40,721 bases of DNA from an uncultured Anaerolineales bacterium (GTDB lineage: Bacteria > Chloroflexota > Anaerolineae > Anaerolineales > UBA4823). Shown piece after piece: positions 7,233-13,787 of this stretch (within the stretch, counting starts at the first letter, position 1; every line of letters starts with the position of its first letter). Below the pieces are notes generated by a model that worked only from the letters and a program-made list of their open reading frames with translations, did no database searches and was not told the DNA's origin. Location: assembly GCA_903872065.1 (NCBI GenBank), contig CAIQJJ010000549.1:1-40721 (forward strand), given 5' to 3'. The translations under genes were made by a program, and so were the position numbers.

Positions 7233-8279
7233 GTGACAACAAACCATTCAAAACCCCGCGTACGCGCGGTTCTCATCGGCCTCAACCATGGCCATGTCAT
7301 CTGGGTCTTGTCCAAGCTGGAGCGCGCGGATATTCAATTCGTCGGTTTCTACGAGCCCAACCGGGATATGGCTGCGCGCTATTCTGCCCAATTTGGCTTT
7401 CCCCTTTCTATGGTTTACAGCAACCTGGATGCTATGCTGGACGAGCTCAAACCTCAGGCCGCTGCCGTCTTTGGCTCGATCCATGCTCACCTCGCCGCGG
7501 TCGAAGCCTGCGCGCCGCGCGGCATCCATGTCATGGTTGAGAAACCTCTGGCAGTCAGCAGTGATCACGCCGATCGCATGGCCGCCCTGGCCCGCAAGCA
7601 TCGCATCCAACTTATCACCAATTACGAGACGTCCTCGTATGCCAGCACTTATGCTGCTCGCGCGATTGTCGAAAGCGGGCCATACGGCCTGATCCGAAAA
7701 ATGGTTGTGCACGACGGTCATCACGGGCCGGCCGAACTTGGGGTTGGCCCAGACTTCTTAAGCTGGTTGACCGACCCGGTCCTCAATGGCGGCGGCGCGG
7801 TCATTGATTTCGGCTGCTACGGCGCCAATCTGTGCACCTGGCTGATGAACGGTCAGCCGCCCAAAAGTGTCACGGCCGTTCTACAAACCCTCAAGCCGCA
7901 GGTCTATCCGAAGGTTGACGACGAAGCCACCCTTGTGTTGACCTATGACGGCGCGCAAGCCATCATTCAGGGTTCGTGGAACTGGCCGGTGGGTCGTAAG
8001 GATATGGAGATTTACGCCCAAAATGGCTATGTGATTGCCGTAGATGAGCTCACCTTGCGCCAACGCCTGCGCGGCGAGCGCGAAGAGACGATTCGTCGCA
8101 TCGAGCCAGCGCCTGAGCGCGTGCGCGACCCCTTTGCCTACCTGGCGGCTGTGGCGTGCGGCGAGGAGGTGGTCGCCCCAGGCAGCCTCTGGTCGCTGGA
8201 GAATAATTTGACTGTGGTGCGCATCCTCGATGCCGCCCGCGAATCAGCCCGGGCGGGCGCGACGATTCGCTTCGCTTGA
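7233..8279 (+). CDS. Gfo/Idh/MocA-family oxidoreductase
   Basis: This 348-residue NAD(P)-dependent sugar or cyclitol dehydrogenase-like protein starts at GTG 7233, six bases after AGGAG (7222-7226). An ATG two bases earlier runs straight into a stop. The N-terminal Rossmann fold carries a 'GLNHGH' loop (16-21), and 'VEKPLA' (102-107) is the conserved EKP nucleotide-domain motif. 'GGGAVIDFGCYGANLCTWLM' is the family's catalytic-domain helix. The family oxidises or reduces sugars and sugar phosphates; the substrate here is unknown. The gene is 28 bp after the AlkD-like gene and 25 bp before the nitroreductase, so all may share a transcript. Confidence 0.9.
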   Translation: MTTNHSKPRVRAVLIGLNHGHVIWVLSKLERADIQFVGFYEPNRDMAARYSAQFGFPLSMVYSNLDAMLDELKPQAAAVFGSIHAHLAAVEACAPRGIHVMVEKPLAVSSDHADRMAALARKHRIQLITNYETSSYASTYAARAIVESGPYGLIRKMVVHDGHHGPAELGVGPDFLSWLTDPVLNGGGAVIDFGCYGANLCTWLMNGQPPKSVTAVLQTLKPQVYPKVDDEATLVLTYDGAQAIIQGSWNWPVGRKDMEIYAQNGYVIAVDELTLRQRLRGEREETIRRIEPAPERVRDPFAYLAAVACGEEVVAPGSLWSLENNLTVVRILDAARESARAGATIRFA

Positions 8280-8940: not shown

Positions 8941-9201
8941 ATGGCAAAGATCATCGAGATTCTTGATACTATGCAACACAATCCCAAAGGTGTCAGTTTT
9001 AGCGATCTTTGTAAAGTCTGCGACCACTATTTTGGTGAAGCCAGGCAAACTGGCAGCAGTCACAGGATATATAAAACTCCCTGGCAAGGCGATCCGCGCG
9101 TGAATATTCAGAACGACAAAGGCATGGCAAAGGCTTACCAGGTAAAACAAATTCTAAGAGCGATTAAACGCCTGGAGGTGCAAGATGACGCTGACGAATG
9201 A
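8941..9201 (+). CDS. hicA: HicA-type toxin (mRNA interferase)
   Basis: The 86-residue protein carries 'GSSHRIYKTPWQGDPRVNIQ' (38-57), the HicA core with the catalytic histidine H41 in a small double-stranded-RNA-binding-like fold. HicA cleaves mRNA when released from HicB. The length is that of the slightly longer HicA subtype with an N-terminal extension. The 3' end overlaps the hicB start by 17 bp, as is usual for this module. No ribosome binding site is seen, which agrees with the leaderless promoter. Confidence 0.88.
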   Translation: MAKIIEILDTMQHNPKGVSFSDLCKVCDHYFGEARQTGSSHRIYKTPWQGDPRVNIQNDKGMAKAYQVKQILRAIKRLEVQDDADE

Positions 9202-9523
9202 TCGCTACACGTATCGTATTACCTGGTCTGAAGAAGACGGCGAATATGTTGGCTTGTGCGCCGAGTTTCCCAGTTTGAGCTGGTTAGCTCTTGATCCGGA
9301 GTCGGCGCTACAAGGTATCCGGCAAGTAGTAGCCGATATTGTCAAAGATTTGCAAGAAAATGCAGAGTATATCCCTGAACCATTGGCGGCGAAAACATAC
9401 AGCGGTCGGTTTATGGTGCGCGTCCCCCCTGACCTACACAGGCGATTGGTTATTGAAGCAGCAGAGGCAGGGATTAGCCTGAATCGGCTAGCCGCTGATA
9501 AACTAAGCCGTTCCCAACCATGA
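9185..9523 (+). CDS. hicB: HicB-type antitoxin
   Basis: The 112-residue protein has an N-terminal HicB fold ('YRITWSEEDGEYVGLCAEFPSLS') that neutralises HicA. A C-terminal ribbon-helix-helix segment ('FMVRVPPDLHRRLVIEAAEA', then 'GISLNRLAADKL') binds DNA for autoregulation. GGAGGTG (9174-9180) lies four bases before the ATG, inside hicA, so the antitoxin has its own strong ribosome binding site. That contrasts with the toxin, whose message is probably leaderless, and would favour antitoxin excess. Confidence 0.9.
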   Translation: MTLTNDRYTYRITWSEEDGEYVGLCAEFPSLSWLALDPESALQGIRQVVADIVKDLQENAEYIPEPLAAKTYSGRFMVRVPPDLHRRLVIEAAEAGISLNRLAADKLSRSQP

Positions 9524-9553
9524 TCACCTGGAAGAACCAATCCAGGCAGGTAA

Positions 9554-9621
9554 GGTAGGTCTCCCCTGACTGCAATTGCAGCGCGCCAAGGGTGGATCCA
9601 TGCGCCCCGGGATAATCGGAG
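9554..9621 (-). pseudogene. Remnant of a GH95 fucosidase 3' end
   Basis: Read on the minus strand this 68-bp block encodes 'DYPGAHGSTLGALQLQSGET', clearly related to 'CPGAHGAVLDALQLQSGET' near the C-terminus of the GH95 protein at 11372-13787. At the DNA level it aligns without gaps to 11413-11480, at roughly three of four bases. The rest of the paralogous gene is missing; the ATPase gene lies where it should continue. It looks like a scar of a second GH95 copy. Confidence 0.65.
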
Positions 9622-9623
9622 CA

Positions 9624-9667
9624 TGTTATAATTTAAGTCAAATGACTTATAAGTCATTTGACTTAAA
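9624..9667 (+). promoter_or_regulatory. Extended -10 promoter abutting a 36-bp perfect palindrome
   Basis: TGTTATAAT (9624-9632) is an extended -10. Its last T is the first base of a perfect inverted repeat, 9632-9667, with 18-bp arms and no loop. Each half is itself a near-dyad (AAGTCA-2-TGACTT), so the block can hold two operator-like sites. Transcription would begin inside the palindrome. An AAGG (9668-9671) follows, 7 bases before the ATPase start. Likely uses are autoregulation or a 5' mRNA hairpin. Confidence 0.65.
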
Positions 9668-9678
9668 AAGGTGTTTCG

Positions 9679-11358
9679 ATGATCAGGAATTTTTATCCCC
9701 CTTATTTACGCCAACTTTTCACCAATCGCAGGCGCGAATTGGATTTTCTACAAAGCCTGGTTGATGATTTGCTGGCTGGCAGGCCGCGTCGACTGGCTGT
9801 ATGGGGGTTGCGTCGCGTCGGCAAAACTCTGGTGCTTCAAGAAGAGATTGCCCGGCTACACCACCAAGGTCTGGTATTTCCAGTTTACATGGATTTTGAA
9901 GACATTTGTACTTCGCCAGAATTATTTGCACAACGCTACATTGGGCTGGTCACATTTTGGACATTGGATGATGGGCAAGGTGAAGTGGATGCCTACTTGA
10001 CTGTGGAACGACTCCTGGAGGCGACTGCGGGCCGTTCAGCAGCTGCTTCACAAACGGCTGGCTCGCTTCTAAGAGAATTGTCGCGCGCCAAACCCGATCA
10101 GGCGCTGCTGCTCAAATTAGCTTTTGAGTACCCGGAAAAACTAGCTCAAGAAGTGAATCGGAAAATGATCCTATTCCTGGATGAATTCACTGAGATCGGC
10201 ACATTGGGCCACTACCCCCAGGTTCGAGAACCGTTAAAGCACTTTCGAGCCGCACTAGCCAGCCAAACCCACGTGGCTTATGTCGTTGCTGGATCAGCGA
10301 TGACAGCCATGATGAAGCTTTTCCAATCCTCAGACGCCCCACTCTTCTTGCAGTTCGAGACCCTATCCCTGGAGCCGTTTGGCCGGCAAGACGCTGAAGT
10401 CCTGATGCGAAAGTTGGGCAGTGAACACGCGCCAGAGGTATATGCGGAAGTTTATCGCTATACAGCAGGTTTCCCATTCTACATCACAGCGTTGATGCAG
10501 CGTTTAGATCGCTTGCAGCAAAGCGGGGAAGAAATCAATGCTGAAACGGTTCGGTATGCTTTTCTTCTGGAAACGCTGTGGCGGGGAGGACAAATATACA
10601 ATTACTGCCGCTATGTCTATGACCTGTCCTTGCAGCGCGCCCGCGGTTATGGCATGCTCAAAGCAATCCTACAATTCCTGGCCGATGAACAAGGATTCAC
10701 ACTTACCGAAATTGCCCGCGCTTTACGCAAGACACCCAGCGCGGTACGCGACTATCTGCGCTGGTTGAGTGAAGTTGATCTGGTTGAGGAACGAGACCAC
10801 ATTTATCAATTCCGAGATGCTGTCTTGCGTTTCTGGGTTGCTTACGCCAGCAAAGGCATTGAAATGGACGCCTTCCCGCGTCGCGAAGACCTGGCAGGGT
10901 TAGTCGCCGACCTGGAAGAGCGTTTCCAACGCACAGCAGGCGAATTGGGACGCGCAAAAGAAGCAGAAGTGCGCGAATTGATGCGCCGGTTTTCAGGGCA
11001 GGTTATCCCTGGAGCTTTGTTCGGTCAGGAAGGCAGCCTGATCTTACCCACCGTGCACGCAGTAGACGGATATCGCTCCCCCGATGGGCAGATCGAACTG
11101 GATGCTGTGGCTGAATTAACGCCAGATCCTACCCGGCCAGGCAGCCAACGCTGGGTGGTATCTATCAAGTGGCGCAACAAACGCGCCGGCAAGAAAGAAC
11201 TGGAACAACTGGCCAGACAAGCATCCGATCTTAACGCTCAAGGATGGATTATTGCCCGAGACGGTTTCACACCTGATGCAGTCAACTACGCCAGGTTCGC
11301 TGGTATCTTAATATCGTCCAGTGAAGACTTAAATCAACTGAGTAAGTTGCTGAAATGA
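9679..11358 (+). CDS. AAA-type ATPase with winged helix and nuclease-like C-terminus
   Basis: The 559-residue protein begins with a P-loop domain of the archaeal-type ATPase group: Walker A 'GLRRVGKT' (43-50), Walker B 'MILFLDEF' (163-170) and sensor-like 'VVAGSA' (202-207). A winged helix ('FTLTEIARALRKTPSAVRDYL', about 340-360) follows. The C-terminal 120 residues resemble the DUF234/PD-(D/E)xK region that usually ends such proteins: 'IELDAVAEL' with D475, then 'WVVSIKWRNK' with K497, where the usual Glu or Gln before the Lys is Ser. Proteins of this layout are often strain-specific and of unclear function. The gene is convergent with the GH95 gene, with only 13 bp between their stops. Base composition is a little more AT-rich than in neighbouring sugar genes. 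Confidence 0.85.
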   Translation: MIRNFYPPYLRQLFTNRRRELDFLQSLVDDLLAGRPRRLAVWGLRRVGKTLVLQEEIARLHHQGLVFPVYMDFEDICTSPELFAQRYIGLVTFWTLDDGQGEVDAYLTVERLLEATAGRSAAASQTAGSLLRELSRAKPDQALLLKLAFEYPEKLAQEVNRKMILFLDEFTEIGTLGHYPQVREPLKHFRAALASQTHVAYVVAGSAMTAMMKLFQSSDAPLFLQFETLSLEPFGRQDAEVLMRKLGSEHAPEVYAEVYRYTAGFPFYITALMQRLDRLQQSGEEINAETVRYAFLLETLWRGGQIYNYCRYVYDLSLQRARGYGMLKAILQFLADEQGFTLTEIARALRKTPSAVRDYLRWLSEVDLVEERDHIYQFRDAVLRFWVAYASKGIEMDAFPRREDLAGLVADLEERFQRTAGELGRAKEAEVRELMRRFSGQVIPGALFGQEGSLILPTVHAVDGYRSPDGQIELDAVAELTPDPTRPGSQRWVVSIKWRNKRAGKKELEQLARQASDLNAQGWIIARDGFTPDAVNYARFAGILISSSEDLNQLSKLLK

Positions 11359-11371
11359 TCCGGACGAATTT

Positions 11372-13783
11372 TCAATCAGAAAACGATGTCCCTTCCAATT
11401 CAATTTTAAGAAGGCAGGTCTCTCCTGACTGCAACTGCAGCGCGTCCAGGACGGCGCCGTGCGCCCCTGGGCAAGGCGCGCCGTCTACTTGAGCCGATCG
11501 TATCGCCGCCGGCAGCCGAAGCTGAATGGATTGGGTTTTCTGCGCCTGCAGCATTACCTGGATGCTCCGCGCTTCCATATCCCAGCTTATATCAACCGTT
11601 ATCCCGCCGCGGCAGAGCAAGCCTCTGACGCTGCCGCGCGCCCAGCGGCGCGGCAGCGCCGGCAGCAGCTTGATCAGGCCAGGCTGCGAGAAACACAGCA
11701 TTTCCTGCATGGCGGCTGTCCACCCCATGTTGGCGTCAATCTGGAACGGCGCCCAGGGCAAATCAACGCAGATGCCCATATTGCGCCAGTCGTTGTGGGT
11801 GGCAAAGAAGTTGTTGAGCAGGCAAGAGCGGCTGAGCAAATCCAGGCATTCCTGCGCCAGATCGCCCTCGCCCATGCGGGCGTAGTTGTTCGCCATGTAG
11901 GTCAGCCCCCAACCGGACTGCTCTTTCAAGCCGATCACCAGGCGCTTCTTGACCGCGACGACGAACGCCTGGAACAGTTCCGGGGCGCTCTCAGGCGTCA
12001 CTTCTGTCCCTGGAAACACCGGGTAGAGATGGGACTGGTGGCGGTGATGGTAATTATCGCTAAAGAAGGGGTGCATCCATTCTTTGACGGCCCCGTCTTG
12101 GTTCACCTGGTAGGGCGGAATGCGCCGCAGCATCTCTTCCCAGGTAGGAATTTCCTCGGGATACATCCCGGTTTGGCGCGCCCCTTCGATCAGGTGGGTA
12201 AGAACTTCTTTGGCAATGGCAAAATCCATCGTGGCGTTGAGCGTGGTTTCCATCTCAGGCTGACCTTCGCCGCGCCAGTAGTTGCCGGGGGTATTTTCCG
12301 GCGAATTGGAAGGAGCGCTGATCCAAAAACCATCTTCGCCAAGAATCATGAAATCCTGGTAGAACAATGCCGCTTCCCTTAGAAAGGGCAGGGCGCGCTG
12401 GCGTAAAAAGGCCTCGTCGCCGGTGTACAGGTAGTAATCGTAATAATGCTGCGCGACCCAACCGCCTCCGCCGGTCCAGTGGATGATATGGGGGGGCAAC
12501 GGTTTTCAACAGGCCCGAATCGGGCGCGGTGGGCGCGGGCAGGAAGATGCCCCGGCAGCCGTAGATGCGGCGGGCGTTCAAGCGGTAGTCGTTCAGCAGG
12601 CGGTCGTGGTAATCAAACAGCGGCAGCGCCGCCTCGGGCAGGTTGCCAGAGAGCGCCTGCCAGTAGATCATTTGCATGTTGACGTTGACCATGTTGAAGG
12701 CCCAGAAACCCTGGTATTCGCCGCCCCACAGCCCCAGCAGATGGCAGGGATTTCCGCCCGGGCGCGAACTGGAAATCAACAGGTAACGCCCATAGGCCCA
12801 CATCTTTTCAATCAATTCCAGCGGCGCTTCGCCGGCGTAGGCTTCCAGCAGCAGTTCTTCATTCGAACGGCCGGCGCTTCGTCGCGAGGCTTCATCGCCC
12901 AGGCTGAGCTGCGCTGAGTGGAACAGGCGGCCATGTTCAGCGGCGTGTGGAGCAAGCAAGCTGGCGTAATCAGCCTGGATGGCGCGGATTTCTGAAGTCA
13001 GCCGCGCCCAGGCTGCTTGACGCTCTTCGTGGGCGAACACTTTCAGGAGGATCAACACCCTCTGCGGGGCCTGGATTTGCAGCGTCGCTCCGTCGGTCCT
13101 CATCTGCCCATCCACGGCAACCACGCGAGCGACCGCGCCAAAATCGCCCCCTCCCGTGTCGCCGGCGGCGGCATAGAAAATGCAGTCGTCTTCGGCGCGG
13201 ACTTCCAGATCGGTGGGCAGCGGGGCGGGCGGCCAATCGAACGGCTTGCGCACATCCGAACGGTCGTGCAGATCAAGCATGATGGCAGCCTGAACCGGCA
13301 GCGGGCCGCTGGAGCGCAGTTCGCACACCACCAGGTCGGCAGGGCGCGAGACAAAGACCGCCCGCTCGAAGCGCGTCTCCCCATCGCGCCAGCTTACGGC
13401 CACCTCGCCGGTCGCCATATTTAATTCGCGCCGGTAGGCTTTAAATCCCTGCCTGGCAGGTTGGACGATCAACAGATCGCCCACTGGCAGCGGGCTGCCC
13501 AATTGAGGCTGGTAGCCGCGAGCGGCGAAGGCGTCGGCCAACACGCGGTCGGCTTCGGCGGGGCGATCGGCCAACAGCAGGCGGCGCACTTCGGGCAGCC
13601 GATCGCTGACATCCGGCAGATCAGGCGTGCGGCTGCCCCACCACAAATCGCCGTGATTGAGCAAGATGCGCTCGCGCTGCACGCCGCCATAAACCGAGAC
13701 GCCAATCGTTCCATTGCCCGACGGCAAAGCGTCGCGCCACTGCGCGCTCCAAAAAGAAGCCGGGGTTAGAAGGGTAAGGATGT

Positions 13784-13787
<4 letters not shown>
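11372..13787 (-). pseudogene. GH95 alpha-L-fucosidase, split by a frameshift
   Basis: Two overlapping frames (13787-12255 and 12499-11372) together encode a GH95 protein of about 804 residues, a normal length. GH95 enzymes are inverting 1,2-alpha-L-fucosidases. The first frame has 'GNGTIGVSVYGGVQRERILLN' near residue 24 and the catalytic Asn pair N368 and N370 in 'NVNMQMIYW'. The second has 'SNSPENTPGNYW' with the general acid Glu, 'HHRHQSHLYPVFPG', and 'QIDANMGWTAAMQEML' with the Asp of the Asn-Asp catalytic set. The frame breaks at seven C (12490-12496 on the plus strand); six would restore 'VAPHIIHWTG'. This may be a sequencing error, a slippage-prone tract or a true mutation. The ATG overlaps the stop of the upstream surface-protein gene (ATGA), showing coupling. 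No signal peptide is evident. Confidence 0.85.
12490..12496. repeat. Seven-base G/C tract at the GH95 frameshift
   Basis: Seven consecutive G on the plus strand (C in the gene) mark the exact point where the reading frame of GH95 shifts. Removal of one base rejoins two conserved halves. Confidence 0.85.

Follow-up and report, generated by a model that had tools for sequence, protein, structure and literature searches.

A solitary ATPase–winged-helix–nuclease gene with an operator-like palindrome, flanked by an orphan piece of a GH95 3′ region, in an Anaerolineales genome

The locus described here lies in a 40,721-nt stretch of DNA from an uncultured Anaerolineales bacterium (the whole stretch is referred to as the window). 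A gene encoding a protein with ATPase, winged-helix and nuclease-like domains stands beside the 3′ end of a GH95 gene, and is bracketed by two copies of a short piece of that GH95 3′ region (Table 1). Beyond the left copy, hereafter the scar, lie a HicB gene and a presumed HicA-like gene; the latter ORF has a strong promoter of the form TTGACA-16-TATCAT. HicAB and then the ATPase gene make up a low-GC island (0.45–0.57, about 8.8–11.4 kb) between GC-rich neighbours.

Table 1. Coordinates of the features at the ATPase locus in the window
Feature	Position	Strand	Remarks
HicA-like gene (presumed)	8941–9198	+	no Pfam match; beyond the scar
HicB gene	9185–9523	+	beyond the scar
Left copy of the repeat pair (scar)	9552–9611	−	diverged orphan piece of GH95 3′ region; 20 codons, without stop codon, without GH95 body
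−10 box of the ATPase promoter	9627–9632	+	TATAAT, with TG one nucleotide ahead of it
Perfect palindrome, 36 bp	9632–9667		two operator-like 14-bp sites, 16 bp apart
Operator-like site 1	9635–9648		AAGTCAAATGACTT
Operator-like site 2	9651–9664		AAGTCATTTGACTT
ATPase–winged-helix–nuclease gene	9679–11358	+	559 aa; ATPase_2 P-loop domain 14–271, winged HTH about 330–370, Mrr-like PD-(D/E)XK domain 467–553
GH95 gene	11372–13787	−	two overlapping frames, 11372–12499 and 12255–13787; frameshift at or near the G7 run 12490–12496
Right copy of the repeat pair	11411–11470	−	within the genuine GH95 C-terminal tail; codons 344–363 of ORF 11372–12499

The ATPase_2 domain (PF01637) was recognised with 44.9 bits against a gathering cut-off of 33.2, above the Pfam threshold, and the Mrr_cat domain with 25 bits against a cut-off of 21. 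With the motif assigned by eye, the catalytic ExK of the nuclease domain is not intact: the window protein and its homologue in genome G057 carry SIK, and the other homologues that reach the motif carry E-V-K, E-I-K or E-L-K (also by eye), except that of G768, which has EVR. Since SIK replaces ExK, the cutting activity of the window protein may be lost or changed. The best match among solved structures was weak (2fna, E = 0.041), while the PADLOC model PDC-S27 matched residues 148–392 with an E value of 2.7e-13 (profile positions 88–328 of 474). In work on archaeal defence, PDC-S27 is presented as an ATPase joined to a PD-(D/E)XK domain, and most such candidates are said to await validation (PMC12988326). 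PDC-S27 resembles the window gene in having the same domain plan and in being a solitary gene. The window protein nevertheless differs, because the model matched it only in part and because it carries SIK instead of the catalytic ExK; in addition, the winged helix and the covarying double operator of the window family are absent from the accessible part of the description (PMC12988326). By its likeness to this candidate defence family, the function of the ATPase unit is probably anti-phage or otherwise conflict-related. The own genome encodes a second ATPase, 44% identical (locus L017, G000:C706, positions 315–2000), which carries 16-bp TAGTAT-type repeats where the window has the perfect palindrome.

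No clear −35 element was seen by eye in the ATPase promoter, which was missing from the list of window promoters returned by a sigma-70 scan. The palindrome begins on the final base of the −10 box. Similar sites stood at the same position in the three other homologues inspected first, and by eye such sites occur in nearly all of the 24 homologue loci. When 29 homologue upstream regions were tested automatically, a 14-mer with at least five of six arm pairs was placed behind a −10-like box in 18 of them, versus 7% of shuffles; some of the picks were wrong sites. The operator arms covary: 117 of 144 are paired, whereas arms dealt anew gave 83 on average and never more than 97. Across the homologues the letters of the sites vary, the symmetry stays and the variation tracks winged-helix residues: operator distance followed HTH distance once the remainder of the protein was allowed for (partial r = 0.31 over 24 loci, with G768 and G542 excluded; 0 of 2000 permutations), in a permutation that models phylogeny only partly. 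On these comparisons, the palindrome is a putative operator and not an element end. The ATPase protein most likely binds it through the winged helix and thereby keeps its own promoter repressed, as predicted from the position of the site directly behind the −10 box. The perfect palindrome does stand at one border of the unit, as a structural end or a replication or transposition signal of an element might; such a role is nonetheless very improbable, because homologues keep the site behind the −10 box, the symmetry is kept despite letter changes that follow the winged helix, and no operator-like site was found at the far border in any of four loci scanned, one of which (L014) has an inverted repeat of different sequence there. 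In the open-access literature we found no published description of this operator or of the tail brackets considered below.

As judged from homologous DNA, the palindrome and the ATPase gene travel as one unit, because similarity between homologues mostly spans promoter, operator and gene only. In most close pairs it runs from about −50 to −109 relative to the start codon to about the stop codon, or ends short of it (C706/G050, G430/G598a, G192/G236, G192/G244, G236/G244 and G598b/G654). Exceptions are G192/G383 and G236/G383, which are similar further upstream, G192/G236, with one additional upstream block in common, and G405/G472, alike over about 2.5 kb downstream. The first-pass annotation had suggested that palindrome and ATPase entered as a unit, and the borders and operator layout shared among homologues bear this out, except that the palindrome appears to be an operator, not an end of the element.

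The homologues are patchily spread. They occur in 12 of 400 genomes searched in the order, 15 of 396 in the class, 4 of 400 in the phylum (under a stricter limit) and 1 of 48 in another order, the one to which G598 belongs; G461 alone has six ATPase matches, one of them a fragment. No relatives were found in viral contigs or phages, and a plasmid search gave one weak match. Empty sites were found in G583 for one of the G461 units (G461a) and in G192 for the G244 unit; G192, although empty at that site, holds a 78% relative at another place. By eye, the G244 unit sits between two copies of a short repeat of which the empty site has about four. For the ATPase of G057, no empty site was found in its genus among the matches listed. 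Locus L086 contains repeats of about 115–130 bp (8060–8189 and 10208–10321) that match many places in G057 on both strands and are therefore self-complementary in part, with the look of dispersed palindromic repeats.

A repeat search of the window aligned the two bracketing copies over 60 nt at 82% identity without gaps. A 68-bp ungapped pair (9554–9621 and 11413–11480) had been proposed from a first reading of the sequence; the pair is real and gap-free, but it extends over 60 bp only, because the final ten positions claimed (9612–9621 versus 11471–11480) agree at 4 of 10 by eye. The match is far outside chance: its ungapped score is 38, whereas 120 mismatched flank pairs averaged 11.1 and reached 15 at most. 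The longest identical run between the copies is 11 nt. On the minus strand both copies encode versions of PGAHG..L.ALQLQSGET, in agreement with the first reading. In a codon test 6 of 11 changes were synonymous (P = 0.06) and one opposite-strand frame scored equally; the codon signal for coding divergence is weak and suggestive only. When the own genome (7.49 Mb in 927 contigs) was searched with a 141-base query, no third copy came up; the remaining matches had E values of at least 0.26, the self-complementary palindrome excepted.

The two copies differ in context. The right copy runs on to the GH95 stop codon at 11372, in a frame of 375 codons; the protein encoded by this frame has matches to both the catalytic and the C-terminal domain of GH95. 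GH95 relatives from other organisms align through the right-copy region, several reaching query residue 364–368, and the tails of the closest relatives have a similar residue pattern, though without PGAHG. The right copy is thus the true GH95 tail, as first supposed. The left copy is cut off at both ends, stopping 12 codons before the GH95 stop codon would come, and no GH95 body lies to its right; its earlier description as an orphan scar also holds. The scar is a patch of GC 0.65 within a segment of about 0.5, and it separates HicAB from the ATPase gene. Because a GC-rich scar parts the two within a low-GC segment, the arrangement agrees with two insertions made one after the other at the GH95 end, of which the newer would adjoin GH95. 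No GH95 match with E ≤ 1e-20 was found in the other 37 genomes of the family (38 searched, the own included); in the order, matches occurred in 2 of 301 genomes, one of the two being the own genome. No empty site for the window unit came to light in these searches. ATPase and HicB were absent from all 34 GH95 loci of other organisms. The GH95 gene is a single frame in relatives as against two in the window, and the split at or near the G7 run is therefore either a genuine frameshift or an assembly error.

We scored brackets in flanks of up to 1500 bases at 26 ATPase loci. A strong direct-repeat bracket was present at three (the window, G461a and G461d), whereas the other 23 scored 17 or less; the bracket is therefore not a fixed property of the unit. 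At G461a an intact 23S_rRNA_IVP gene precedes the ATPase gene, and 28 bases past the ATPase stop begins a partial copy of its 3′ region (340 bp, 67%) from which the first part of the gene is missing; G583 has the same neighbourhood with a single 23S_rRNA_IVP gene and no ATPase. At G461d a gene end precedes the ATPase gene and a second, partial copy (168 bp) follows its stop codon, this bracket adjoining a 52-N gap and the contig edge. All three loci share the same host-gene order (intact 3′ end, ATPase, partial 3′ copy), irrespective of ATPase direction. With 600-base flanks, a score of at least 30 was reached by 2 of 20 ATPase genes besides that of the window, compared with 3 of 528 other genes, two of these three lying in one locus (in this comparison the L175 gene was shifted by hand). 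The enrichment at ATPase loci is suggestive, not strong, because both cases outside the window belong to one genome. Moreover, the orphan copy at G461a is no nearer than the intact copy to the empty-site allele of G583, so that an old tandem duplication is possible there. A translated comparison of flanks was noisy where these were GC-rich, and among the matches listed only the window and G461a were clear. At locus L088 (1926–2516 and flanks), the 23S_rRNA_IVP-type genes of G461 and G583 are edged by TATTGGG-type heptamer runs, which also lie between other genes there.

How the scar arose can be read in several ways. The reading that we prefer, and to which we give about an even chance, is that 9622–11358 is a self-regulated solitary unit, made up of promoter, double palindromic operator and ATPase–winged-helix–nuclease gene, and that it entered by an insertion anchored in the GH95 tail, leaving a displaced tail behind. 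The incoming DNA would have carried a diverged GH95 tail adjoining the ATPase unit and would have entered beside the 3′ end of the resident GH95 gene. At one end the incoming tail would have paired with the resident tail, while the other end would have been joined without homology; alternatively, a circle bearing tail and ATPase could have been taken up by a single crossover. Either way, the outcome would be the host-gene order seen at the three bracketed loci: in the window, a single GH95 gene whose tail, on the right, is complete, and a second tail pushed beyond the cargo, where we infer that it decayed to 60 bp.

The first-pass annotation had offered two other origins, replacement of most of a second GH95 gene by the ATPase gene, or duplication of the target end on insertion. 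On the former, the left copy would be what survives, at the 3′ side, of a second, tandem GH95 gene that lost its body on entry of the unit or through later deletion; this is a minority reading with some claim to attention. Tandem paralogues produce just such diverged copies in the same orientation, the changes tend towards synonymous third positions (6 of 11), and the truncated copy at G461a resembles a second gene that has its own leader but has undergone an internal deletion. The reading is unsupported by the locus itself, because neither a start nor a body nor an intergenic region from a second GH95 is left in 9612–11371 and the genome's other GH95 copies are just 35–40% alike and end differently. 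The remnant also lacks the last 12 codons, and at the 34 loci of other organisms a second GH95 was found nearby only at L027 and possibly L040, both distant. Rather unlikely is a templated patch of 60 bp, copied from the nearby GH95 tail during break repair at the insertion site and then left to drift, even though it makes a second gene unnecessary and agrees with a left copy cut at both ends. An identity of 82% would demand long drift, the synonymous lean slightly opposes pure drift (P = 0.06), and the 340-bp and 168-bp brackets at other loci would go unexplained. Target-site duplication, with the ATPase unit inserting in the manner of a transposon, has very little to commend it beyond direct repeats on both sides and the sharp borders of the unit: 60 bp is far above the usual length, the copies have diverged to 82% identity with identical runs of 11 nt at most, neither a transposase nor an integrase gene is present between them, the bracket sequence differs from locus to locus with most loci having none, and the right copy retains the natural end of GH95. 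With that natural tail and without a longer identical run, a short target duplication is unsupported. A homing-like scheme goes beyond the tail-anchored insertion that we prefer and is decidedly improbable: the ATPase–winged-helix–nuclease genes would be self-repressed solitary mobile genes, whose own nuclease would open a site near a gene 3′ end and whose one-sided tail homology would copy the unit in. If so, the displaced tail would be the footprint of that process, and the operator would silence the copy and may mark copies already present.

Some integrative elements have their attachment site at a gene 3′ end and likewise leave an intact gene end on one side and a displaced copy on the other, but the window unit is only about 1.8 kb long and has no integrase between the copies, where the ATPase gene is the sole recognised gene, and no identical core. 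Type II toxin–antitoxin operons such as HicAB are autoregulated and resemble the window unit as small mobile modules with an operator at their own promoter (putative in the window), whereas the unit is one gene, with presumed regulator, ATPase and nuclease in one protein. For orphan immunity genes in type VI clusters, homology-facilitated illegitimate recombination has been proposed, the same model of a homologous anchor at one end and illegitimate joining at the other that we prefer for the window, with reference to work on rhs genes (PMC5361080). The orphan immunity arrays, and the rhs C-terminal displacement cited there, share with the window a 3′ region displaced beyond the cargo and surviving as an orphan (PMC5361080). 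In contrast to these systems, the window cargo is no effector tail but a gene in its own right, whose promoter bears operator-like sites, and the anchor genes vary between ATPase loci.

By itself, the scar is a local insertion relic. The more general point is a patchily spread ATPase–nuclease gene with a covarying palindromic operator, as a putative site, at its own promoter, which predicts autorepression. This operator gives a handle on how candidate defence genes stay silent, and displaced gene tails, taken as insertion footprints, could reveal how single genes that lack an integrase enter genomes.
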